Shown here: piece by piece, positions 51,624 to 64,000 of the stretch
Numbering within the stretch: the first letter of the stretch is position 1
Layout: each line of letters starts with the position of its first letter
DNA from: Streptomyces resistomycificus
Lineage (GTDB): Bacteria > Actinomycetota > Actinomycetes > Streptomycetales > Streptomycetaceae
Length of the DNA stretch: 64,000 bases
NCBI RefSeq assembly: GCF_001514265.1
Contig: NZ_KQ948990.1
Coordinates: 320,320 to 384,319, forward strand
Reading direction: 5' to 3'
Made by a program: the position numbers and the translations under genes
Notes under the pieces: generated by a model
Databases searched by the model: none
Told to the model about the DNA's origin: nothing
The model's input: the letters and a program-made list of their open reading frames with translations, nothing else

Positions 51624-52874
51624 TCAGCCCCGCCCCCGCTGCTCCCCCAGCGTCCCGCGCAACCGCTGTGCCCGCAGCACCAGTTCCAGTTCGAAGCGGC
51701 GGTCGGGGTCGTCGATCTCGGCGCCCCACAGCTCCCGGATCTGGCGGAGCCGGTAGCGCACCGTCTGGGGGTGGACGCCGAGGCGGGCCGCCACCTCCGG
51801 GGCTCCGCCCCTGGTCTCCAGCCACGCCAGTAACGTCTCCGCGAGGCGCCGGCCGTGGGTGGGGCCGCAGTGGGTCAGGGGGGCCAGGCAGCGCAGGGCG
51901 AGGTCGTCGATGAGTTCTTCGGGCTGGAGGAGGACCAGCGCCTCCGTGTGCTCGGTGCAGTACAGCACCTCACCGGACGGCAACAGCCCTCGCTCCATCA
52001 GCCGTACCGCCGCCTCCGCCCAGCGCAGCGACTTCGCCGCGTCGGCCAGCGGCACCGGCGGGCCGATCGCCCCCGACCATCCGGTCAGGGCACGGTGGAG
52101 CAGCTCCGACCGGCCGGCCGCGTCCGGTTCCGGGACGACCATGCGGGGCTGCTCGTACTCCATGTCGAGCAGCACCCCCTGCCCCACCGCGGGCGCCACC
52201 GCCTCCCGCGCCGGGCGCAGCAGTACGCCCACCGCGACCTTCCCGGGCAGCGGCCAGCCGATACGGGCGGCGCGTTCGGTGAGCGCCTCGGCGGGGTCGC
52301 CCCGGTGGTGTTCGACGAGCAGCAGTTCCATCAGTCGTCGTTGCAGCCTGAGCCGCTCGCCGGCCTGTCGCGCCGCCGCCTCCGCGTAGCCCCGTACGGA
52401 CTGGTCGACCAGGCCGTCCAGGTACTGGTAGCCGGCGTCCACCAGCTCGTACATCGCGGGTGGCGGGATCTCCACTCGCTGGCCGATCTCGGCGAAACGG
52501 CGCCAGGCCAGCCGTACGCCCATGCGGTAGATCGCCTGGAGGGAGTCGAGGCTGCGGCCGCCCAGTCCCTCGCCGCGGCCGAACTCCTGGAAGACGCCGG
52601 GCGGTACGGTCGGGCGGCCCGTCGAGTAGTCGGCGTGTTCCAGGTGCTGGACGAAGACCTCGATGGCGCGGCGGATGCCGATGAGAGCCATCGGCTCGCC
52701 CGACTCGTCGAGGACCTCGGGCAGATGGGGGTACTCGCGGCGGATCTCGCTGCGGATCTCCTCGGCGAGCGCGGGTGCCTCCGCCATGGCGATCGCCGCG
52801 AACTGACGGACCTTCAGGCGCGGCACGTCGTGCCAGGCCGAGCGGGAGGTGACGGTTGCCGGGCGGGCCGCCAC
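51624..52874 (-). CDS. PucR family transcriptional regulator (CdaR-like)
   Basis: A 416-residue regulator. The C-terminus has the PucR helix-turn-helix 'LGVHPQTVRYRLRQIRELWG' and 'RRFELELVLRAQRLR'. The N-terminal ~170 residues are helical ('EEIRSEIRREYPHLPEVLDE', 'RSLDSLQAIYRMGVRLAWRR') and the middle is a GGDEF-like fold without catalytic residues. Codon 348 (51831-51833) is TTA, suggesting late, bldA-dependent synthesis. GTG 52874 has GGGGAG upstream, which lies inside the end of the small gene 52878-53030, so the two are coupled. The target is unknown. Confidence 0.85.
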   Translation of the reverse strand: MAARPATVTSRSAWHDVPRLKVRQFAAIAMAEAPALAEEIRSEIRREYPHLPEVLDESGEPMALIGIRRAIEVFVQHLEHADYSTGRPTVPPGVFQEFGRGEGLGGRSLDSLQAIYRMGVRLAWRRFAEIGQRVEIPPPAMYELVDAGYQYLDGLVDQSVRGYAEAAARQAGERLRLQRRLMELLLVEHHRGDPAEALTERAARIGWPLPGKVAVGVLLRPAREAVAPAVGQGVLLDMEYEQPRMVVPEPDAAGRSELLHRALTGWSGAIGPPVPLADAAKSLRWAEAAVRLMERGLLPSGEVLYCTEHTEALVLLQPEELIDDLALRCLAPLTHCGPTHGRRLAETLLAWLETRGGAPEVAARLGVHPQTVRYRLRQIRELWGAEIDDPDRRFELELVLRAQRLRGTLGEQRGRG

Positions 52875-52877
52875 CGG

Positions 52878-53030
52878 TCAACTCCCCTGGCCCGTTTGCT
52901 CGTACGTGATCAAGGGTGTGTTGGGCTGGTCGGGCGTCGCTTCGAGCAGCGCGACGACACCGAGCGCCGCGCCCACGGCGAGGGCGGCGCCGAGCGCCAC
53001 GGCGAGGGCGGCGGCAAGCAGTCTGGACAT
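52878..53030 (-). CDS. Small single-span membrane protein (50 residues)
   Basis: A short gene reading 'MSRLLAAALAVALGAALAVG', then 'AALGVVALLEATPDQPNTPL', ending with a polar tail '...TYEQTGQGS'. It is one long hydrophobic helix with a short external tail, resembling DUF2613-type actinobacterial peptides. It stops 3 bp before the PucR gene, whose ribosome site lies in its last codons, which supports it being real. GAGG lies ~11 bases before ATG 53030. Function unknown. Confidence 0.6.
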   Translation of the reverse strand: MSRLLAAALAVALGAALAVGAALGVVALLEATPDQPNTPLITYEQTGQGS

Positions 53031-53249: not shown

Positions 53250-54239
53250 ATGCGCCGTACAGCCTCTCCGATCTCTCTCATTCTGCTGGGACTCGGCACG
53301 TTTCTGCTGGTCCTGGCGCCTCTGCTCGCCTGGTACGTGGAGCCCCGGGCCGCCGTGAACCCCATCGACATCGACACCACCGCCGTCTACCGCGGCACCG
53401 GCAGCGTCTTCGACACCGAGCGCGTGAAAACCGTGCCCGACCAGCGGATCACCGTCACCCAGCGGGTGCGGGGCAACGTCGAGGCCAGTGAGCGCAGCGG
53501 CGACGCCGCGGTCTGGGACGTGACGACCACGGTCGACACGGACAAGTCGCTGCCGGCCGCCGATCCGCACGACGCGCTCGACTTCGTCCCGCACCGCTGG
53601 GTCATGGACCGGCGCACGACCGAGCCGGTGCACTGCTGCCGGGAGACCCCGTACATCGAGGGCGAGGCCTACCTGAAGTTCCCCTTTGACGTGCAGAAAC
53701 GCTCCTACCGCTGGTGGGACAACACCCTCGGCGGGACGATCACGATGAACTACCGGGGTACCGAGAAGGTCCAGGGGTACACGGGTTACCGGTTCACCGG
53801 CACGGTCCCGCCCTCGAAGGTCGGCACCCGCCTGGTGCCGGGCACCATCGTCGACCAGCCGCAGCGGCCGCAGGTGCTGGCCGAGGAGTGGTACTCCAAC
53901 CACGGGATCGAGCTGGTCGTCGACCAGGCCACCGGCCGGGTGATCTACGCGCAGACGGGCCCGAGGCGGACCCTGCGGGCGCCCGGCGCGGACGAGGACG
54001 CGGCCGTGCTGCTGGACAGCCGGAAGATCGCGTTCACCACCGCGACGCAGAAGGAGGCGGTGCGGCAGGCCGAGAAGGACAGCGGTCAACTGCGCGCGGT
54101 GGGCAGGACGGTACCGATCGGTGCCGCTGTGGCCGGATTCGTCCTGGCGGTCGTGGGGGGTGTTTTGGTGGCTCGAGGACGCAGGCGTCCCGAATCCGAG
54201 GAAACACCCGATACGCCCAGGGTTCCTCTCACGATGTGA
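53250..54239 (+). CDS. DUF3068 (PorA-like) membrane-anchored protein
   Basis: A 329-residue protein with an N-terminal membrane helix ('ISLILLGLGTFLLVLAPLLA'), a ~260-residue extracellular beta-rich domain ('AAVNPIDIDTTAVYRGTGSV', 'GYTGYRFTGTVPPSK', 'EEWYSNHGIELVVDQATGRV') and a C-terminal helix ('IGAAVAGFVLAVVGGVLVAR') followed by a charged tail. This is the DUF3068 family, also called PorA-like, found in actinobacteria including mycobacteria; its function is unknown. It has a good promoter and stands at the head of an envelope-glycan locus. Confidence 0.8.
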   Translation: MRRTASPISLILLGLGTFLLVLAPLLAWYVEPRAAVNPIDIDTTAVYRGTGSVFDTERVKTVPDQRITVTQRVRGNVEASERSGDAAVWDVTTTVDTDKSLPAADPHDALDFVPHRWVMDRRTTEPVHCCRETPYIEGEAYLKFPFDVQKRSYRWWDNTLGGTITMNYRGTEKVQGYTGYRFTGTVPPSKVGTRLVPGTIVDQPQRPQVLAEEWYSNHGIELVVDQATGRVIYAQTGPRRTLRAPGADEDAAVLLDSRKIAFTTATQKEAVRQAEKDSGQLRAVGRTVPIGAAVAGFVLAVVGGVLVARGRRRPESEETPDTPRVPLTM

Positions 54240-54435
54240 TGCGACGTCAGCTCCAACAAAGCCGGAAATTGTCACTTCCGTGAGTAGCCGTGGCGAACGG
54301 CTGGGCGAAAACTGTCCACCCCACCCCAGCACAGTCCGTCCACACCCACCTCGCAAGTAGCCCTCAGATTCCCCACAGGAACACAAACCCTCTTCCCCCA
54401 CGCTGAGTTCCGCACCCTGACGAGTTGGAGCACCC

Positions 54436-55590
54436 ATGCCCCAGCACGTGCCGTCCTCGCTGCGTGCCGCGTTCCCCACGGCGCCGCAGCACCCCCCGGC
54501 GCACCCCCCACCCCCGCGCCGAATCGTCTTCCTTGCCCATCGAGATCTGGACAACCCGGCCGCCGGCGGCTCCGAGCTGCTGGTGGACCGGCTCGCCGAC
54601 GGACTGACCCGGCTCGGTCACCAGGTGACCCTGCTGTGCGGAGGGCCCGCCTCGTACCGGGACTACCGGGTCGTGTCGGCCGGCGGCGAGTTCGGCCACT
54701 ATCTGCGCGCCCGTTCGGCCTTCACCCGCCAGGTCGGCGACTGCGACCTGCTGGTCGAGGTGTGCAACGGCATGCCGTACCTGGCCCCCCTCTGGCACCG
54801 CGGCCCCACCCTGTGCCTGGTCAACCACGTCCACACGGACCTGTGGAAGATGCGGTTCGGCGGGGCGCTGACCCCGGCCGCACGCATCGGCCGAAGACTC
54901 GAGCACTGGGCGCTGGCCGGTTCCGCGCAGCACCGGGGCCTGCTGGTGGCCGTCTCCCCCTCGACGGCTCACGCGCTGCGCGCGATCGGCGTCGAACGCG
55001 ACCGCATCCGGGTCGTGCACAACGGCGTCGAGGAACCCGGCCCGCGGGCCGACCGTTCGCCCGACCCGCTGTTCGTCGCGGTGGGCCGGCTCGTCGAGTA
55101 CAAGCGGATCGATCTGCTGCTGAGGCTGTGGGAGCGGGTGCGGCCGGTCACCGGCGGCCGGCTGCTGATCGTCGGCGACGGGCCCGAACGCGGACGTCTC
55201 GAGCAACTCGCCGGCCCTGGCGTGGAGTTCACCGGTCATGTCACCGAGGCGGAGAAACACCGCCTGCTGTGCGCGGCCTGGCTGCTGCTGCATCCCTCCG
55301 CGGTGGAGGGGTGGGGCCTGGTCGTCACCGAGGCGGCCGCCCGCCAGACCCCGTCGATCGCCTTCGACGTGCCCGGCCTGCGCGACTCCGTGGTGGACGG
55401 CGAGACCGGCGTCCTCGCCCACGGTGAGTCCTCCTTCGCGGCGGCCTGGTGCACGCTGGCCCTGTCGGGACACCGCCGGGAGCTGATGGGCAAGGCGGCC
55501 CGGGACCGTGCGGCGCGCTACCGCTGGGACCGTACGGTGAGGCAGTTCCGCGCGGTGGCCGCCGAGGCGGTTCGGAGCTGGCCGCCGTGA
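54436..55590 (+). CDS. Glycosyltransferase family 4
   Basis: A 384-residue GT4 (GT-B fold) enzyme. After a Pro-rich N-terminus, donor and acceptor domains show 'RIVFLAHRDLDNPAAGGSEL', 'LLVAVSPSTAHALRAIGVER', 'IRVVHNGVEE', 'FVAVGRLVEYKRIDLLLRLW', 'LLIVGDGPERGRLEQLA' and the retaining-GT4 motif region 'LLHPSAVEGWGLVVTEAAAR' with the catalytic Glu pair. GGAG precedes ATG 54436. It is coupled to the next methyltransferase gene by GTGA. It probably transfers a sugar to an envelope lipid or polysaccharide precursor on the cytoplasmic side. Confidence 0.88.
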   Translation: MPQHVPSSLRAAFPTAPQHPPAHPPPPRRIVFLAHRDLDNPAAGGSELLVDRLADGLTRLGHQVTLLCGGPASYRDYRVVSAGGEFGHYLRARSAFTRQVGDCDLLVEVCNGMPYLAPLWHRGPTLCLVNHVHTDLWKMRFGGALTPAARIGRRLEHWALAGSAQHRGLLVAVSPSTAHALRAIGVERDRIRVVHNGVEEPGPRADRSPDPLFVAVGRLVEYKRIDLLLRLWERVRPVTGGRLLIVGDGPERGRLEQLAGPGVEFTGHVTEAEKHRLLCAAWLLLHPSAVEGWGLVVTEAAARQTPSIAFDVPGLRDSVVDGETGVLAHGESSFAAAWCTLALSGHRRELMGKAARDRAARYRWDRTVRQFRAVAAEAVRSWPP

Positions 55591-56345
55591 CCCGTATCGA
55601 AGACCCTTCGACGCGCCGCCCGAAGGATCCCTCGTTCCGGCGCTCGCTCGCCCTCTTCCGTGCCTTCCTGCACGAGCAGGACGACCCGGACTCCTGCTAC
55701 TCGCTGCTCGCCCGGGACGCCGTAAACCAGGTCGAGGCCTACGACGGTCCGGTCGCCGGCCGCACGGTCGTGGACGTCGGCGGCGGCAGCGGCCACTTCA
55801 CCGCGGAGTTCCGGCGCCGCGGCGCCCAGGCCCACCTCTTCGAACCGGACGTACGGGAGCTGGGCGAGACCCCGCCCGACGGGACGGTGGTCGCGGACGG
55901 GTACCTGCTGCCGCTGTACGACGGGGTCGCGGACGTCACCTTCTCCTCCAACGTCCTCGAGCACGTGGCCGATCCGCAGACCTTCATCAGCGAGCTGGTG
56001 CGGGTGACCCGGCCCGACGGGCTGATCTACGTGTCGTTCACCAACTGGCTGTCCCCGTGGGGCGGTCACGAGTGGGCGCCCTGGCACTACCTGGGTGCCG
56101 AGCGGGCCCGCGCCCGCTACCGGCGCCGTACCGGAAGGGCCGCCAAGCACACCCTCGGCGAGAACCTGTTCGCCGTGCACATCGGCCCGACCCTGCGGCA
56201 GGTGCGCGCCCGTGACGACGTCAAGGTCGTCTCGGCGCGCTCCCGCTACTGGCCGTTCCTCGCGGAGACCGTCGTCAGAGCACCCGGGATCCGCGAGGTG
56301 GCCACCTGGAACCTCCTCCTCATCCTCCGGCGGTGTCCACCATGA
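55587..56345 (+). CDS. SAM-dependent methyltransferase (envelope locus, copy 1)
   Basis: A 252-residue class I methyltransferase: SAM loop 'TVVDVGGGSGHFTAEFRRRG', 'AHLFEPDVRELGETPPDGTV', 'TFSSNVLEHVADPQTFISEL' and 'YVSFTNWLSPWGGHEWAPWH'. GTG 55587 overlaps the GT4 stop (GTGA) and its stop overlaps the AftD-like start (ATGA). The Trp-rich motif near residue 150 recalls methyltransferases beside GT4 genes in mycobacterial envelope loci. It probably methylates a sugar or lipid carrier-linked intermediate. Confidence 0.85.
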   Translation: MTRIEDPSTRRPKDPSFRRSLALFRAFLHEQDDPDSCYSLLARDAVNQVEAYDGPVAGRTVVDVGGGSGHFTAEFRRRGAQAHLFEPDVRELGETPPDGTVVADGYLLPLYDGVADVTFSSNVLEHVADPQTFISELVRVTRPDGLIYVSFTNWLSPWGGHEWAPWHYLGAERARARYRRRTGRAAKHTLGENLFAVHIGPTLRQVRARDDVKVVSARSRYWPFLAETVVRAPGIREVATWNLLLILRRCPP

Positions 56346-59300
56346 CGACGTCCACGGTCCAGGCCCCTCCTCCGGCGGCCGTCCCCACCACCGCGATGAT
56401 GTCGGGCCCCCCGGAGGGCCCGTCGTCGCGGCGCTGGCTGCTGGGGTTCTGGGCCGTGGTGTTCGTGCTGTTCCTGGCGGTCCGCCCGGGCCGCCAGACC
56501 TTCGACACCAAGCTCGGCGTCACCACCGACCCGGGCCGCTTCCTCGCCGACCTGGGCCAGTTGTGGCACGACCAGGGCTCGTTCGGCGGGATCCAGGACC
56601 AGTACGTCGGTTATGTGTGGCCGATGCTGCCGTTCTACTGGCTGGGCCACGCCGTGCAGTTGCCGGTGTGGCTGGTGGAGCGGCTGTGGCTGTCGCTGGT
56701 CGTGTCGGTGGCCTTCTGGGGTGCGCTACGGCTCACCGAGAGGCTGCGCATCGGCAGTGTGCCGTCCCGGCTGCTCGCCTCGGTGGCGTACGCGCTGTGG
56801 CCGGTGTTCACGATCGTCGTCGGTTCGACGTCGGCGGCCGCGCTGCCCGGCGCCTTCCTCCCGTGGGTCCTGCTGCCGCTCGCCGACGAGCGCTACAGCG
56901 CCCGGGTCGCCGCCCTGCGCTCGGCGCTGGTCGTCCCGTTCATGGGCGGCGTCAACGCGGCCTCGACGCTGGCCGCCCTCCTCCCGGCCGGCCTCTACCT
57001 GCTCTCCCGTCCGCCCGGCCCGAGGCAGCGCAAACTGATCGCCTGGTGGGCGCCCGGTGTGCTGCTGGCGACCGCCTGGTGGTGGATCCCGCTGCTGCTG
57101 CTCGGCTTCCACGGCGAGAACTTCCTTCCCTACGTGGAGAGTTCGCAGACCACCACCGAGACCATGTCGGCGACGGAGGCGCTGCGCGGGGCCGGCAACT
57201 GGGTCGCCTACCTGCATCTGGTGGAGGCCTGGCTGCCGGCGGGCTGGACGGTGGCGTCCTCGGTGGTCGTGATCCTCTGCTCGGCGTTCGCGGCCGGGCT
57301 GGGGCTGGCCGGGCTGGCCCGGCGGGACCTGCCGGAGCGGCGCTGGCTGGTGCTGACCGCGGTGACGGCCGTACTGATCCTGCTCGCCGGGTACGGCGGC
57401 CCGTTCGGCGCGCCCTTCCACGGCACGGTGCAGGACTGGCTGAACGGCCCTCTCGCACCCTTCCGCAACATCTACAAGTTCCAGGTGGGGCTCGCCCTCG
57501 CCCTGGTCCTCGGCATCGCCCACCTGGTGGGCACGGCCGCCGAGACGCGCGGCGCCCGCCGGGTACGGGGCCGGCGTCTCGCCCCGCTGGTCGCCGCCGT
57601 GCTGATCCTGCCCGGGCTGCTGTGGCCGTACCTCAACGGCTCGATCCTCAACCCGGGTTCCTTCCAGGAGCTCCCCAAGTACTGGCACACCACGGCCGAC
57701 TGGCTGGAGAAGTACTCGCCCGACTCGCGCGCCCTGGTCGTCCCCGCCACCGCGCACGGCATCTACACCTGGGGCTCCCCCATCGACCAGCCCCTCGACG
57801 TGCTCGCCGAGTCCCGGTGGGCCCAGCGCGACTACGTGCCCTTCGGCACCGCCGGAAACCGGCGCGCCATGGACGCGGTGGAGGAGGCGCTGCTGACCGG
57901 CGGGGAGGTCCCGGGGCTGGCCGACTACCTGAGCCGGGCGGGCGTGTACTACGTCGTCGTCCGCAACGACCTCGACCCCGACCAGATCGGGTACGTCCCC
58001 GGCACGACGGTGAAGCGGACCCTGGAACAGTCCGGCTACGAGCGGGTGACGGGCATCGGCCCGGTCATGACCGGCGGCCGGATCGCGCCCGACACCCCGC
58101 TCCAGGTCGAGGGCCTGTACCCGAGGCAGCGGGCGGTGGAGATCTACCGGCCGGCGAGCGAGGAGGTGCCGCGGCCCGGGCAGGCCGGGCTGACGCCGGT
58201 CGCCGACACGGCGGTGGTGTCCGGCGGCCCGGAGGCGCTGCTGCCGCTGGCGGCCGGACTGCGGGGCCGGGCGACCGTCCTGACCGGCGACAACCATCCC
58301 GGGCTCGGCACCCCGCCGCTGCAGATCGTCGGTGACGGACTGCGCCGCGCGGACACCCGCTTCGGTCTGGTCAACGCCAACACCTCGTACACGTACACCC
58401 GCGACGAGCGCAACGCGTCCGGCGCCGCGCAGGACGCCGGCGACAAGCCGCACCAGATCCTGCCGACCACGGGCCTGGACCATCAGACGGTCGCCGAACT
58501 GCGGGGCGCCGAAGCGGTCACCGCGTCCTCCTACGGCAACTGGCTCTTCCACCTTCCGCAGTTCGACCCGGTGAACGCCTTCGACGGCAACCCGGCGACG
58601 GCGTGGACGGAGGGCGTGGCGGGCTCGCCGAACGGCCAGTGGCTGCGGATCGACTTCACCGGCTCCCGCGACCTGCCGTCGTCCTTCAAGGTCACCCCGT
58701 TGCCGCAGGAGAGCGTGCGGTCGGCGCCGACCCGGGTGCGGGTGGAGACGGAGAGGGGGGCGGCGACCAGCTTCCTGCGTCCCGACGGCTCGACGCAGCG
58801 CGTCAAGGCGCCGAAGGGCACGTCGAGCTGGATGAAGCTGACGATCACCGACTCGGTGGCCCGCCGGACCGGACTCGCCGGCGCCGGCTTCTCCGAGATC
58901 GACCTGCCGGACGTCCAGGTGACCCGTCTGCTCCGGCTGCCCACCGACGCGGGCGACAGCGACGCCTCGGCCGAGGTCGTCTCCCTGCACCGCACCGCCG
59001 ACCCGGCCGGGTTCTCCCCGACGGGCACCGAGGCGGGCCTGCACCGCCGCTTCTCCACGGCGACGGCGGGGACGTACGAGGTGAAGGCGAGCGCGGTCCC
59101 GGTCACGGGTGAGGAACTCGACCGGCTGCTGTACGAGATCGCGCCCGACCAGGCCGGCCGCATCACCGCGACCGCCGACTCCACGGCCGCCCTCGGCGCC
59201 GGGCTGTCGGCGCGCAACCTGACCGACGGCGACCTGACGACCGCGTGGATCGCGGGCGACCGCCCCACCATCCATCTGCGCTGGCCCGACAAACAGCCGG

Positions 59301-60544
59301 TCGGCGAGATCGTGCTGCCCGCCGCGGGCGGCCTGTCCACCCGCCCCACCGAGGTCGACATCTCCTCCCCGGACGGCGCGGTGATCGCCGGCGTCGACGA
59401 GAACGGCTGGGTGCGCTTCCCGCCGATCACCACGGACCGTCTCGACATCACCATCACGAAGACGGCCGCGCTGACCCTGCACAACCCGGTCGCCGACGAG
59501 GACCTCCAACTGCCGGTCGGCCTCACCGAGGCGTACCTGCCGGGGCTCGACCGCTACCGCACCCCCCAGCCGAAGGAGACCCGTGCCTTCTCGCTGCCGT
59601 GCGGGAAGGGGCCGGTGCTGGCGGTCGACGGCGAGTTGTACCGGACAAGCGTGAAGGGCACGGTCCGGGACCTGACCGAACGCCGGTCGGTTGACGTGAC
59701 GCTCTGTCAGTCGGAGGGCTCCGGGAACGAGTTGGAGCTGGCGGCGGGCTCGCACCGGGTCGAGGGCGGTGACGCGGGCCCGCTCGCGCTGACCGACGTG
59801 ACCCTCACCCGGGGCACGGTCAACGAGCCGACGCCGGTCGGGCGTGACCTGTCCATCCGGGACTGGCTGGGTGACCGGCGCGCGGTGTCGGTCGGCTCGG
59901 GCGCGGCGTCCTACCTCACGACGTACGAGAACTACAACGACGGCTGGAAGGCCACGCTGAACGGCAGGGAGCTGTCGTCGGTTCGGCTGGACGGCTGGCA
60001 GCAGGGCTGGCGGATCCCGGCCGGGGCAGGTGGCACCGTAAAGCTGTCCTACGAGCCGTCGACGGTCTACGACGCCGGGCTGATCGGCAGCGGAGTGGCA
60101 CTGGCCGCCCTGCTGGGCCTGGTCCTGTGGCGGCGCCACGCCCCCAACCCCGACGACCCGCAGCCGTTGCCGCCGCTGCCCGGTCCGTGGCTCGGCACGG
60201 TCGCGCTGACGCTGGTGGGCGCGGTGATCGCCGGCTGGCTCGCGCTGCTGGTCCCGGCGCTGGCGCTGCTGGCGTACCGACGGCACGCACTCCTCGTACC
60301 GATCGCGTTCGCGGCCCTCGCGGGAGCGGGCATCGCGGCGGCGGTGGGCGCGGGCGAGCCGGTGGGCGCGGAGCAGGGCGCGTACGGGCGGGCGGCCCAA
60401 CTGCTGGCGCTGATCGGGTTGTTCGCGGGCCTGGTGAGCGTGTGGGAGCGCGACGACAGGCGTGAGCCGCCGCCGGATTCACAGGCGCCGACGCGGCACC
60501 TGCCGCCGGTCGAAGCGGACAAGGGGAGGGGCGAACCCGCATGA
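56342..60544 (+). CDS. AftD-like alpha-(1->3)-arabinofuranosyltransferase (GT-C, DUF3367)
   Basis: A 1400-residue integral membrane glycosyltransferase, about the length of mycobacterial AftD. The first ~430 residues hold many membrane helices ('RRWLLGFWAVVFVLFLAVRP', 'LWLSLVVSVAFWGALRLTER', 'LLATAWWWIPLLLLGFHGEN', 'LGLAGLARRDL') with an acidic GT-C loop 'TFDTKLGVTTDPGRFLADLG'. A ~850-residue extracytoplasmic part follows, including discoidin/F5-8-type carbohydrate-binding modules ('ASSYGNWLFHLPQFDPVNAF', 'GQWLRIDFTGSRDLPSSFKV') and ends in three to four more helices. AftD adds arabinofuranose from a polyprenyl donor. Streptomyces lack arabinogalactan, so the acceptor is unknown. Confidence 0.85.
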   Translation: MTTSTVQAPPPAAVPTTAMMSGPPEGPSSRRWLLGFWAVVFVLFLAVRPGRQTFDTKLGVTTDPGRFLADLGQLWHDQGSFGGIQDQYVGYVWPMLPFYWLGHAVQLPVWLVERLWLSLVVSVAFWGALRLTERLRIGSVPSRLLASVAYALWPVFTIVVGSTSAAALPGAFLPWVLLPLADERYSARVAALRSALVVPFMGGVNAASTLAALLPAGLYLLSRPPGPRQRKLIAWWAPGVLLATAWWWIPLLLLGFHGENFLPYVESSQTTTETMSATEALRGAGNWVAYLHLVEAWLPAGWTVASSVVVILCSAFAAGLGLAGLARRDLPERRWLVLTAVTAVLILLAGYGGPFGAPFHGTVQDWLNGPLAPFRNIYKFQVGLALALVLGIAHLVGTAAETRGARRVRGRRLAPLVAAVLILPGLLWPYLNGSILNPGSFQELPKYWHTTADWLEKYSPDSRALVVPATAHGIYTWGSPIDQPLDVLAESRWAQRDYVPFGTAGNRRAMDAVEEALLTGGEVPGLADYLSRAGVYYVVVRNDLDPDQIGYVPGTTVKRTLEQSGYERVTGIGPVMTGGRIAPDTPLQVEGLYPRQRAVEIYRPASEEVPRPGQAGLTPVADTAVVSGGPEALLPLAAGLRGRATVLTGDNHPGLGTPPLQIVGDGLRRADTRFGLVNANTSYTYTRDERNASGAAQDAGDKPHQILPTTGLDHQTVAELRGAEAVTASSYGNWLFHLPQFDPVNAFDGNPATAWTEGVAGSPNGQWLRIDFTGSRDLPSSFKVTPLPQESVRSAPTRVRVETERGAATSFLRPDGSTQRVKAPKGTSSWMKLTITDSVARRTGLAGAGFSEIDLPDVQVTRLLRLPTDAGDSDASAEVVSLHRTADPAGFSPTGTEAGLHRRFSTATAGTYEVKASAVPVTGEELDRLLYEIAPDQAGRITATADSTAALGAGLSARNLTDGDLTTAWIAGDRPTIHLRWPDKQPVGEIVLPAAGGLSTRPTEVDISSPDGAVIAGVDENGWVRFPPITTDRLDITITKTAALTLHNPVADEDLQLPVGLTEAYLPGLDRYRTPQPKETRAFSLPCGKGPVLAVDGELYRTSVKGTVRDLTERRSVDVTLCQSEGSGNELELAAGSHRVEGGDAGPLALTDVTLTRGTVNEPTPVGRDLSIRDWLGDRRAVSVGSGAASYLTTYENYNDGWKATLNGRELSSVRLDGWQQGWRIPAGAGGTVKLSYEPSTVYDAGLIGSGVALAALLGLVLWRRHAPNPDDPQPLPPLPGPWLGTVALTLVGAVIAGWLALLVPALALLAYRRHALLVPIAFAALAGAGIAAAVGAGEPVGAEQGAYGRAAQLLALIGLFAGLVSVWERDDRREPPPDSQAPTRHLPPVEADKGRGEPA

Positions 60545-62067
60545 CGAGCACGCCGCCGCGCATTCCGTTCCCCGTGGTGGACGAGGTGGCCCGGCACTGT
60601 CTCCAGGAGGAGGAGCCGGAGACGGTCCACATCGAGGTGCATCTGCCGGGCCGGCTGGACCCGCAACGGCTGCGCGGGGCCTTCGCCGAGGCGCTCCGGC
60701 GGCACCCGCGGATCCTGATGCGGGAGGCGCCGGGGCGGTGGTACCGGCGCCGCTACGAGTGGGAGCTGACGGCCGAGCCGGACGTGGAGGTGGTGAGCTT
60801 CCCGGCGCCGGGCAGGGACGCGCTGCGGGACGCGCGGACGCGGGCCCTGGTGGAGGCACCGCCCCTGTCCCTGTCACCGCCGATCCGGCTGGAGGTGGTG
60901 GAGGGGGCGGGGCCCGCGGAGGGCAGCGAGGCGAGTGACGGGGTCGGCCTGACCTCGGGCAGCCGTACCGCCGGGGCGGCGCCTGTACGGGCGGCGGCGG
61001 ACGGCCGGGCTGCGGCGGACGGCACCGCGCGCGCGGGGACCTCCGCTCCCGCCGCCCCCGTGACCGCCGGCGGCCGGGCGGCCGGCGCGACCGCTCCCGA
61101 CCCGCGGCGGGCGGCACCCCCCGAGCGCGGGCGGACCGCCACGTCCCCCGGCACCGGCCCGGCCCGGCCCTCTCAAGGCACGGTCCTCTTCCTCACCATC
61201 AACCACACCGCCCTGGACGGCCCGGCCTGCCTCCGCGTGCTCGCCACCGCGGCCGAGGTGTACGGCGGCCGGGACAACTCCCCCGCCGCCGCGCCCCTCC
61301 GCAGTCCCGACACCCGCCTGGAAGCCCCGGAGACCCCCTCCAACTGGTCCCGCCCCGCGAGGGTCGCGCCCGGCACCCCCGAGCTCTCCCCCGGCAACGG
61401 CCTGCTGGTCACCGAGCTCCCCCTCCCCCACCGCCCCAAGGGCTCGCCCTACACGGTGAACGACCAGCTCATGGTCACCACGGCCCTCACCATCGCGCAC
61501 TGGAACCGGGAGCACGGCGTCCGCCCCCGCCCGCTCCGCATCACCATGCCGGTGGACGACCGTCCCCGCGACCCGACCATGCCCATCGGAAACGGCACCC
61601 GGCTCGTCGAAGTCCCCTTCGCTCCGGCCGAGTTGGCTCACCCTCCGATGCGTGACCTGCTGCGCCGCACGGCCACCCGCACCCGCGCCCTGAAGTCCCT
61701 TCCCCGCCCGCAACTGGGCCACGGCGCCACCCTCCTGACCGCGCCGGTCACCCCTGTGGCCTGGCGGGCCGCCCTCACCCGGGGGTTGCGCAGAGCCGCC
61801 GCGCCCTGGACGTCGACCACCCTGCTCAGCAACATCGGCCGGATCCCCTACCCCCTGGACTTCGGCGAGGAGGCCGGCCGCGCGCACGCCGTCTGGTTCT
61901 CCGCCCCCGCCCGCATGCCCCGCGGCCTCACCGTCACCACCGCCTCCACCGCGGGCCGCCTCCATCTCGCCCTGCGCTGGTCGCGGGCCCTGCTCGGGCA
62001 CGGCGACGGCGCCCACCTGCGGGACCTCTTCGAGCACTACCTGCACACGACGGAGGCCGGCGCATGA
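60541..62067 (+). CDS. Condensation-domain-like acyltransferase with low-complexity insertion
   Basis: A 508-residue protein of the condensation/PapA/WS-DGAT-type superfamily. The catalytic HxxxD(G) is His222-Thr-Ala-Leu-Asp226-Gly in 'VLFLTINHTALDGPACLRVL'; 'RPLRITMPVDDRPRDPTMPI' and 'TTLLSNIGRIPYPLDFGEEA' mark the C-terminal lobe. Residues ~121-208 are an Ala/Gly/Thr/Pro-rich insertion immediately before the catalytic motif, unusual for the family. It starts as ATGA overlapping the AftD-like stop. It could acylate the glycan or carrier made by the neighbouring enzymes. It has no NRPS partner here. Confidence 0.8.
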   Translation: MTSTPPRIPFPVVDEVARHCLQEEEPETVHIEVHLPGRLDPQRLRGAFAEALRRHPRILMREAPGRWYRRRYEWELTAEPDVEVVSFPAPGRDALRDARTRALVEAPPLSLSPPIRLEVVEGAGPAEGSEASDGVGLTSGSRTAGAAPVRAAADGRAAADGTARAGTSAPAAPVTAGGRAAGATAPDPRRAAPPERGRTATSPGTGPARPSQGTVLFLTINHTALDGPACLRVLATAAEVYGGRDNSPAAAPLRSPDTRLEAPETPSNWSRPARVAPGTPELSPGNGLLVTELPLPHRPKGSPYTVNDQLMVTTALTIAHWNREHGVRPRPLRITMPVDDRPRDPTMPIGNGTRLVEVPFAPAELAHPPMRDLLRRTATRTRALKSLPRPQLGHGATLLTAPVTPVAWRAALTRGLRRAAAPWTSTTLLSNIGRIPYPLDFGEEAGRAHAVWFSAPARMPRGLTVTTASTAGRLHLALRWSRALLGHGDGAHLRDLFEHYLHTTEAGA

Positions 62068-62798
62068 CCAGCACCGCACAACTCCCCAAAGACCTGCGCG
62101 ACTTCTACGAGGATCCCGCCGTCCCCGTCGCCTCCGGCACCCCACGCTCCCTGCGCCAGGCCCGCATGCTGGCCGCCGCCCTCGGCCCGGCCGCCCCCGA
62201 GGCCCGCACCATCCTCGACATCGGCTGCGGCGACGGCACCGCCGCCGCCACCGCCGCCCCCCTCCTCCCGGGCCACCACATCGTCGGCGTCGACTGGTCC
62301 CAGGACGCCCTGAAGCGCGCCCGCACGCACCTGACGTACGCAATCCGCGGTGAGCTCAGCGGCGAAGGGCTGCCGTTCGGCACCGGCGCCGCCGACGCCG
62401 TGCTGTTCAGCGAGGTGATCGAGCACCTCGTCGACCCGGACGCCGCGCTCGACGAGATCCGCCGCGTCCTGCGGCCGGGCGGCCACCTCATGCTGTCGAC
62501 ACCGAACCTGGCGGCCTGGTACAATCGCGCCCTGCTGCTGGCCGGCGTGCAGCCCGTGTTCTCCGAGGTGAGCCTGCGGGCCATCCACGGCCGGCCGGGG
62601 CGGGAGGTCGTCGGACATCTGCGGCTGTACACCGCCCGCGCGTTACGGGAGTTCGTGACCGCGGCCGGCTTCGAGGTCGTACGCCTCGAAGGCGCTCCCT
62701 TCCACGGCGTGCCGCGTCCGCTGCGGCCGCTGGACCGGCTGGCCTGTGCCAGACCCTCCCTCGCGTCGATCCTGCTCCTGCACGCCCGAAGGACGTAG
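62064..62798 (+). CDS. SAM-dependent methyltransferase (envelope locus, copy 2)
   Basis: A 244-residue class I methyltransferase: 'ARTILDIGCGDGTAAATAAP', 'IVGVDWSQDALKRARTHLTY', 'ADAVLFSEVIEHLVDPDAAL', 'VLRPGGHLMLSTPNLAAWYN'. It overlaps the acyltransferase stop by four bases (ATGA) and is 3 bp from the next gene. Codon 194 (62643-62645) is TTA, so translation should need the bldA tRNA. Likely O- or C-methylates a sugar or lipid intermediate. Confidence 0.88.
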   Translation: MTSTAQLPKDLRDFYEDPAVPVASGTPRSLRQARMLAAALGPAAPEARTILDIGCGDGTAAATAAPLLPGHHIVGVDWSQDALKRARTHLTYAIRGELSGEGLPFGTGAADAVLFSEVIEHLVDPDAALDEIRRVLRPGGHLMLSTPNLAAWYNRALLLAGVQPVFSEVSLRAIHGRPGREVVGHLRLYTARALREFVTAAGFEVVRLEGAPFHGVPRPLRPLDRLACARPSLASILLLHARRT

Positions 62799-62801
62799 GG
62801 C

Positions 62802-63719
62802 ATGTGGTGGGGAGTGGCCGCGGCCCTGCTGGCGAACGTCCTCTACAGCACCGGATTCGTCCTGGAGAAACGGGCGTTGGCCGCCCTGCCCGAGGTGAGT
62901 ATCCGCCGCCCGGCCCGGCTGCTGGGGCTGGTGCTGCGCAGCCCGTTGTGGATCGCCGGGTCGCTGTCGCTCGCCGCCGGGTTCGGCGCGCAGCTCGCCG
63001 TCTACCGGACGCTGCCGATCGCCGCGGCGCAGGGCATCTTCGTGTCCGGGCTCGTGCTGCTGGTGCTGCTGTCCTCCCGGCTGCTGGGCGAGGAGACCAC
63101 CGGGCGCGAGCGGTACGCGCTGGGCGCGATCCTCGCCGCGCTCCTCATGGTCGTCCTGTCGCTGAACGAGGGCTCCGACACGGTGAGCCAGGAGGCGCCG
63201 TACCCGCTGATCCTGCTGGTGTGCGTGCCGTCGCTGGCGGCGGGCGTCTGGCTGTACAACGCGGCCGAGCGCCGTACCCGGCACCGCCACCGCGCGCCGA
63301 CCACGGGCGTGGAGTACGGCGTGGCCGTCGGCCTGCTGTACGGGGTCAGCTCGCTCGCCATCAAGGGGGTGTCGAGCTACCTGACGGCGAGTGGTTTCGG
63401 CGGGGCCCTGCTCGACCTGCTGCGCTCCCCGTACCCGTATCTCCTGCTGTGCACCGGCGCGTTCGGTCTGGTGATGTCACAGGCGGCGCTGCAGCGCTGC
63501 CGGGCCTCGCTGATCGTGCCGGTGTGCACGACCGTGACCTGCCTGTACACGGCGGTGCTCGGCACGCTCTCGTTCGGCGAAGCGCTGCCCCACGACCCGT
63601 TCAGGCTGGCCCTGCGGCTGTCGGGCATCGTGCTCGCCGTCGCCGTCCTGCTGTCCATGCCGAAGCACGACCGGACGGACCGAGCCTCCCTCGGTGCCAA
63701 GGAGTTGACCCCACCATGA
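62802..63719 (+). CDS. DMT/EamA-like membrane protein
   Basis: A 305-residue membrane protein with about nine or ten helices: 'AAALLANVLYSTGFVLEKRA', 'PLWIAGSLSLAAGFGAQLAV', 'IAAAQGIFVSGLVLLVLLSS', 'GAILAALLMVVLSLNEGSDT', 'YPLILLVCVPSLAAGVWLYN' and others, ending in 'LRLSGIVLAVAVLLSMP'. The two-repeat layout and 'GFVLEKRALAALP' motif fit the drug/metabolite transporter superfamily (EamA/NIPA-like). In a glycan locus it may flip a polyprenyl-linked sugar or supply a co-substrate. Its last codons overlap the Trm112 gene (ATGA). Confidence 0.82.
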   Translation: MWWGVAAALLANVLYSTGFVLEKRALAALPEVSIRRPARLLGLVLRSPLWIAGSLSLAAGFGAQLAVYRTLPIAAAQGIFVSGLVLLVLLSSRLLGEETTGRERYALGAILAALLMVVLSLNEGSDTVSQEAPYPLILLVCVPSLAAGVWLYNAAERRTRHRHRAPTTGVEYGVAVGLLYGVSSLAIKGVSSYLTASGFGGALLDLLRSPYPYLLLCTGAFGLVMSQAALQRCRASLIVPVCTTVTCLYTAVLGTLSFGEALPHDPFRLALRLSGIVLAVAVLLSMPKHDRTDRASLGAKELTPP

Positions 63720-63940
63720 AACCCGACGATCCCCTGCTGAAGATCCTGGCGTGCCCGCTCGACAAGGGGCCGCTACATCTCGTCGTGCCGGACGGGCCGA
63801 CGCGGTCCGAGGTCCTCTACAACCCGCGCCTGCAACGGCGTTACCCGATCGTCGACGGCATCCCGCAGCTGCTGCCGTCCTCCGGGGAACAGGTGACGGA
63901 CGACGAGCACGAGACGCTTGTGAAGCGGATGGCCCCGTGA
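63716..63940 (+). CDS. Trm112-like small protein
   Basis: A 74-residue protein with the Trm112/YcaR fold signature: 'LLKILACPLDKGPLHLV', then 'LYNPRLQRRYPIVDGIPQLL'. Trm112 proteins stabilise SAM methyltransferases; bacterial stand-alone copies often sit in envelope-glycan loci. Only one Cys remains (Cys13), so it does not bind zinc as eukaryotic Trm112 does. It could be a partner of one of the two methyltransferases just upstream. ATGA overlap with the DMT gene, and its stop overlaps the next GTG. Confidence 0.85.
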   Translation: MKPDDPLLKILACPLDKGPLHLVVPDGPTRSEVLYNPRLQRRYPIVDGIPQLLPSSGEQVTDDEHETLVKRMAP

Positions 63941-64000
63941 CGGGCCCCGCGCGCACGGCGGGCACCGGCGGCCCGGCGGGCACGGACAAGGCGGCGGGCC
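63937..64000 (+). CDS. Start of an unidentified gene cut by the window edge
   Basis: GTG 63937 overlaps the Trm112 stop (GTGA) and opens a frame that reads 'VTGPARTAGTGGPAGTDKAA' to the window end. It is Gly/Ala/Thr-rich and too short to identify. The coupling says it belongs to the same envelope-glycan operon. Confidence 0.6.
   Translation, partial: MTGPARTAGTGGPAGTDKAAG

Follow-up and report, generated by a model that had tools for sequence, protein, structure and literature searches.

A conserved AftD-type gene cluster in Streptomyces and its kinship with the envelope locus of mycobacteria and corynebacteria

What does an AftD-type glycosyltransferase, whose mycobacterial representative is an alpha-arabinofuranosyltransferase, do in Streptomyces, a genus without the mycobacterial mycolate coat? 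The question is raised by nine consecutive genes at the end of a 64,000-nucleotide stretch of the Streptomyces resistomycificus genome (assembly GCF_001514265.1, contig NZ_KQ948990.1, positions 320,320 to 384,319; hereafter the window), which encode a PgfA/LmcA-type lipid-binding protein, a family 4 glycosyltransferase (GT4), a methyltransferase (MT1), the AftD-type enzyme, a condensation-fold protein, a second methyltransferase (MT2), a NIPA/DMT-type membrane protein, a Trm112-like protein and an FkbM-type methyltransferase. The original prediction, made from the letters of the window, was that of a surface glycan containing arabinofuranose. The answer favored here, and considered reasonably probable, is that the Streptomyces cluster is a variant of an ancestral actinomycete envelope-glycan module that predates mycolates, and that acylates and methylates a product whose sugar donor need not be arabinofuranose or decaprenyl-phosphoryl-arabinose (DPA).

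Gene content, conservation and orthology

The Streptomyces locus is real, conserved and operon-like. Family searches recovered all nine genes that had been listed for it, on the + strand and in the order proposed, and a base-by-base check bore out the ATGA/GTGA overlaps at all junctions from GT4 on, the sole exception being a gap of 3 bp between MT2 and the NIPA/DMT gene; PgfA precedes GT4 by 196 bp. The first gene (53250..54239) encodes a protein of the periplasmic lipid-binding PgfA/LmcA type (DUF3068, now PorA/PgfA; PF11271, 273 bits) that passes the equivalog test for this family (NF053601, 324 bits against a cut-off of 160) and matches the LmcA crystal structure 7n3v with E=1e-7. It is followed by GT4 (54436..55590; PF13692/PF13439), the class I methyltransferase MT1 (55587..56345; PF08241) and the AftD-type protein of 1403 residues (56342..60544, with a possible GTG start at 56333). 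Downstream of these lie the genes for the condensation-fold protein (60541..62067), the class I methyltransferase MT2 (62064..62798; PF13489, 86 bits), the multi-span NIPA/DMT-type protein, a candidate lipid-sugar flippase (62802..63719; PF05653, 30 bits, cut-off 26), and the small Trm112-like protein, a candidate methyltransferase activator (63716..63940; PF03966, 43.5 bits), with the FkbM-type gene at the edge of the window.

The locus is not peculiar to this one genome. Of 101 genomes sampled from the genus, 42 (42%) have AftD. The nearest relatives of the AftD of the window, at 89% identity or less, all come from Streptomyces, which rules out a host with a mycolate or arabinogalactan wall, such as a member of the Pseudonocardiales. 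The nine-gene order is kept, as far as contigs reach, in 20 loci of the genus sample, some of the copies on chromosome arms lacking FkbM, and in 69 loci from named Streptomyces. Gene order is thus conserved in approximately 90 Streptomyces loci, far beyond chance. In a class-wide sample AftD is present in 94 of 197 genomes and in 35 of 81 genera, and relatives of GT4, MT1 and PgfA lie within a few kb of AftD in many of the AftD-positive genomes. The core of the module has a fifth component in a DUF2613-like protein, which in the window is a single-span membrane protein of 50 residues encoded on the - strand (52881..53030; PF11021, E=5e-4, 20.5 bits, just below the cut-off of 22.1); DUF2613 is the family of Rv0236A. 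A profile of this protein detected relatives beside GT4 or AftD, some of them weakly, in loci L117, L118, L122, L123, L125 and L133, and the core of DUF2613, GT4, methyltransferase, AftD and PgfA recurs in many actinomycete families.

The relationship to the mycobacterial and corynebacterial locus was approached by searching the MT1 and GT4 of the window in six whole genomes (G003, G112, G027, G036, G022 and G042), and in all six the top match of both proteins falls in the AftD/PgfA region, far above paralogues. In G003, which is mycobacterial-type as judged by its AftD (1881 bits to the AftD structure 6w98), the top match of MT1 scores 154 bits against 42 for the next paralogue, and that of GT4 123 against 52. 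In G003 the locus runs from MT1 and GT4 through small genes to an MmpA-like gene, PgfA and a TmaT-like acyltransferase, and AftD lies about 10 kb further along, in agreement with the order AftD-cg3162-TmaT-LmcA-MmpA-GT-cg3167-MtrP published for C. glutamicum (PMC7775120; PMC8698533), in which cg3161, cg3163, cg3166 and cg3168 are AftD, TmaT, a glycosyltransferase and MtrP, cg3164 and cg3165 lying between TmaT and the glycosyltransferase (PMC7775120), while NCgl2760, NCgl2761 and NCgl2764 correspond to LmcA, MmpA and MtrP (PMC8698533). Since the best hits and the locus order in G003 match the mycolata locus, MT1 is assigned as the orthologue of MtrP/Rv0224c on best hit and position, GT4 as that of Rv0225 and PgfA as that of Rv0227c, the Rv names being given by position and from papers.

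The proposed kinship with Rv0224c-Rv0236c and NCgl2759-2764 therefore extends beyond shared families to individual genes, since GT4 and MT1 both find their top matches at the PgfA/AftD locus. What the cluster shares with Rv0224c-Rv0228 and aftD (Rv0236c), and with NCgl2757 and NCgl2759-2764 (cg3161-cg3168), is an orthologous MtrP-type methyltransferase, GT4 and PgfA/LmcA with AftD nearby and, in relatives, the DUF2613-like protein beside AftD. Unlike the mycolata locus, the nine-gene Streptomyces cluster includes no MmpA and no TmaT (the whole genome was not searched for either family), adds the condensation-fold acyltransferase, MT2, the NIPA/DMT protein, Trm112 and FkbM, forms a single tight run on the + strand and has no mycolates to serve. 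Because the module occurs far outside the mycolata, their locus is most simply regarded as a derived form of it, a conclusion that is better supported than the individual steps of the mechanism proposed below.

The AftD-type protein and its sugar donor

Membership of the AftD family is clear from the Pfam profile (PF11847, 751 bits against a cut-off of 26), and carbohydrate-binding modules are also recognized (CBM_AftD, 46 bits). Residues 31-1364 align with the solved mycobacterial AftD (6w98/6wbx) with E of about 1e-127 and about 32% identity, and the two proteins are alike in fold, length and carbohydrate-binding modules. The predicted GT-C domain (predicted local distance difference test score, pLDDT, of 67) superposes on 6w98 with Z 36.3 over 486 residues and a root-mean-square deviation (rmsd) of 5.2, whereas scores were lower for oligosaccharyltransferases (Z 17-21), ArnT (16.6) and AftA (15.4). 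A comparison of 149 AftD sequences, 90 from Streptomyces and 59 from elsewhere, in which residues were treated as conserved motifs and not as assigned active-site positions, revealed that D/E58, T59, K60, R117, N208, E269, R378, N379, K382 and D485 are almost or completely invariant; D58, the acidic catalytic-type residue of the first GT-C loop, is E in 16 of the 90 Streptomyces sequences. In contrast with nearly all of the 59 others, the Streptomyces clade carries E169A, H381Y, D/E384Q, R388A and usually E486Q, and the motifs SxSxE and RNxHK(F/L)(D/E)xxxRLP are not preserved, with A169, Y381, Q384 and A388 in nearly all 90 sequences; this AftD is also present in genomes without DPA genes. The large protein thus retains the GT-C fold and its acidic residue, but not the full set of residues conserved in other AftDs. 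In a tree, two AftD sequences of family f16 adjoin those of Streptomyces, a placement with weak support. Both have A169, Y/F381 and Q384, and the sister loci of f16 have a condensation-like gene beside AftD. The motif change was considered as a mark of DPA loss, a notion that is unsupported since other DprE1-less lineages keep E169/H381: this is the case for family f17, and a Micromonospora locus (L207) has the canonical residues.

The DPA genes on which an arabinofuranose-containing product would depend are present in this genome. A complete cassette lies side by side on another contig, C12 (G000, L093:11762-16918), with DprE1 (696 bits), DprE2 (382) and a UbiA-type DPPR synthase (432), all above curated cut-offs, together with a PAP2 phosphatase and a GtrA-type protein, both read from sequence. 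Within the genus, DPPR synthase occurs in 25 of 42 AftD-positive and 15 of 59 AftD-negative genomes (odds ratio 4.3, p=9e-4), and DprE1 in 33 of 42 and 24 of 59, respectively (odds ratio 5.3, p=2e-4), neither value being corrected for phylogeny. The association is loose: nine of the 42 AftD-positive genomes have neither gene, and the cluster is intact where examined. In the DPA-null G258, a single contig of 12.1 Mb, none of the nine genes is missing, and the GT-C domain of its AftD shares 86% identity with that of the DPA-complete G289, the motif residues differing at position 486 alone; G275 likewise combines an intact cluster with the absence of both DprE1 and DPPR synthase. Across the class, DprE1 is missing at E<=1e-100 from 51 of the 94 AftD-positive genomes, including 16 of 16 in f16 and 12 of 12 in f17, and a search for DPPR synthase in 24 of the DprE1-less AftD-positive genomes and two mycobacterial-type controls gave, among the 24, a strong match in G128 alone. 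Eight further AftD-positive genomes have DprE1-DprE2 without neighboring UbiA, PAP2 or GtrA genes (L217-L224: G202, G254, G214, G197, G248, G200, G257 and G035), six of them having no strong UbiA-type DPPR synthase genome-wide, and G035 and G257 having a lower-scoring UbiA match elsewhere.

The expected co-occurrence of AftD with DPA genes is therefore borne out as a positive association in the genus and fails as a rule, given the nine AftD-positive genomes with neither gene and the lack of DprE1 in most AftD-positive genomes of several other families. Strict DPA dependence of the AftD module is rejected by this distribution in genus and class. DPA is a possible donor in this strain but cannot be the general donor of the module, and close relatives with the same enzyme do without it, barring an unrecognized DPA route in these relatives. 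No match to AftA or Emb (PF12250, PF04602) was obtained in this genome, while the C. glutamicum positive control was matched, and mycobacterial-type arabinogalactan is therefore ruled out here. In 15 genomes of the genus sample DPPR synthase is present and AftD absent. Because of these, and because the cassette occurs here without Emb or AftA, another DPA user in Streptomyces is likely.

These data bear directly on the view that the AftD of the window is a true DPA-dependent arabinofuranosyltransferase that makes an arabinofuranose-containing surface glycan. The complete cassette, the positive link to DPPR synthase and DprE1 across the genus sample, and the retention of the AftD fold with D58, K60, R117, N208, E269, R378, N379, K382 and D485 all speak for it, but they are set against the intact clusters of G258 and G275, the 15 genomes with DPPR synthase and no AftD, the replacement of E169, H381, D/E384 and R388, and the lack of AftA or Emb, by which an arabinan would be initiated or lengthened. 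Arabinose as the sugar is doubtful, and the presence of arabinofuranose in the glycan, as originally stated, is not supported, given the absence of AftA and Emb, the loose DPA link and the replaced residues; this view is one option, on the unlikely side, and not the best supported.

An instructive comparison is offered by the three-component pentofuranose systems (GT136, Citrobacter), which also employ a GT-C enzyme with a carbohydrate-binding module and a polyprenyl-phosphate sugar outside the membrane, and in which DprE1/E2 serve the arabinofuranose variants (PMC11127046). In those systems the genes for synthase, flippase and GT-C stand side by side; here the DPA cassette is on another contig and is sometimes missing.

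A proposed route and its alternatives

The product of the cluster, as judged from its gene families, is probably a modified surface sugar or glycolipid. GT4 would place a sugar onto a lipid or lipid-linked acceptor at the cytoplasmic face of the membrane; MT1, MT2 and the FkbM enzyme would O-methylate the product, with Trm112 activating at least one of them, and the condensation-fold enzyme would acylate it. The NIPA/DMT protein may flip the product or a sugar donor, after which the AftD-type GT-C, acting outside with its carbohydrate-binding modules, would transfer a polyprenyl-phosphate sugar onto the product, and PgfA would carry or shield the lipid part. The mycolate-transport and lipomannan/lipoarabinomannan (LM/LAM) locus of mycobacteria and corynebacteria would descend from the same module, represented by DUF2613, GT4, the MtrP-type methyltransferase, AftD and PgfA.

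The acylation step involves a protein (60541-62067; ACYLTRANSFERASE) for which no Pfam match was found. Its predicted structure (pLDDT 70) has a condensation fold, with Z 29.1 to AzeD (8s6l) over 378 residues at an rmsd of 3.5 and Z 21.4 to PapA5 (1q9j), and it carries the motif NHTALDG, a variant of HHxxxDG, in which H222 and D226 are invariant among 22 sequences. The fold and the invariant His/Asp pair make acyl transfer likely for the modeled protein. It resembles PapA5, wax synthase and condensation-domain acyltransferases in fold and in the spacing of the catalytic His and Asp, and differs from them in its lack of a Pfam match and in the first His of HHxxxDG, which is Asn in most members.

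Several points weigh against the favored reading of an ancestral envelope-glycan module. Because AftD tends to co-occur with DPPR synthase and DprE1, DPA may play a role in some species, and a divergent phosphoribosyltransferase could have escaped detection, G035 and G257 having their lower-scoring UbiA matches. In addition, PgfA, which in mycobacteria is a periplasmic protein that binds lipids (PMC9678360; PMC8972800), is tied to trehalose monomycolate (TMM) in M. smegmatis, whereas its C. glutamicum counterpart LmcA is tied to LM/LAM (PMC9678360), so that PgfA alone does not fix the pathway. Product, donor and acceptor are, moreover, predictions from gene families.

A bolder extension of the module reading, put forward tentatively, is that arabinofuranosyl transfer is not the original function of the AftD family, which would instead be the GT-C of an ancient, largely DPA-independent module (with DUF2613, GT4, MtrP and PgfA) that makes an undescribed envelope glycan or glycolipid. 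The mycolata would later have turned AftD to arabinan and split off MmpA and the TMM-transport functions, while Streptomyces would use another polyprenyl-linked sugar.

An alternative with a comparably low chance to that of the arabinofuranose view, and thus doubtful, is that the cluster modifies and exports a glycolipid and not a polymer, in the way that the related locus handles acetylated trehalose monomycolate; AftD would then stand in for MmpA, its N-terminal relative, and the condensation-fold enzyme for TmaT. The phenotypes of MtrP, MmpA and TmaT concern the acetylation and transport of trehalose monocorynomycolate (TMCM), and a resemblance of MmpA to the first 668 residues of AftD has been reported (PMC8698533); the cluster, for its part, has an MtrP-type MT1, PgfA and an acyltransferase, yet no MmpA or TmaT. 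Against this, the Streptomyces AftD is not shortened in the manner of MmpA but full-length, and it retains both the carbohydrate-binding modules and the GT-C residues. That the cluster is instead a specialized-metabolite (lipoglycoside) pathway, as the resemblance of its methyltransferases and condensation-fold enzyme to antibiotic-cluster enzymes might suggest, is very improbable, given that it holds no nonribosomal peptide synthetase or polyketide synthase genes, that its core is conserved across unrelated actinomycete families and is orthologous to envelope genes, and that its order is fixed at the frequency given above for the genus.

Little is understood of MtrP, MmpA, PgfA and the Rv0225-type GT4, several of which are reported to be essential in M. 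tuberculosis. A mycolate-free genus with orthologues of most of these proteins, and with AftD, in a compact operon is a tractable place in which to learn what the module makes. An open-access literature search for AftD or the DPA pathway in Streptomyces found no report, which is weak evidence of absence. An AftD label assigned by automatic annotation should not be taken as a sign of arabinan or DPA.

Flanking genes and additional copies

The FkbM-type methyltransferase gene enters the window with its 5' part (63937..64000, + strand), as recognized from the GTGA overlap, the reading frame and an orthologue (L136:17450-18280; PF05050, 58 bits). Downstream of the window it runs into a masked stretch of N (L003, about 790-1350), in which its 3' end is unreadable. 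Neither a sigma-70 type promoter, sought near 53250, nor an Rfam match in the window was found.

G242 and G289 each carry two copies of the locus, one in the core and one towards the chromosome end. In f16, genomes G015, G034, G075 and G085, among others, lack DprE1 and have two to three AftD copies each, of which one, at about 290 bits, is far more divergent. Upstream of the Streptomyces cluster and divergent from it lies a gene for a PucR-type transcriptional regulator (51624..52874, - strand; PF13556 HTH_30, 71 bits), a possible regulator of the cluster; a PucR-type gene adjoins the cluster in 85 loci, and the DUF2613-like gene does so in 83.

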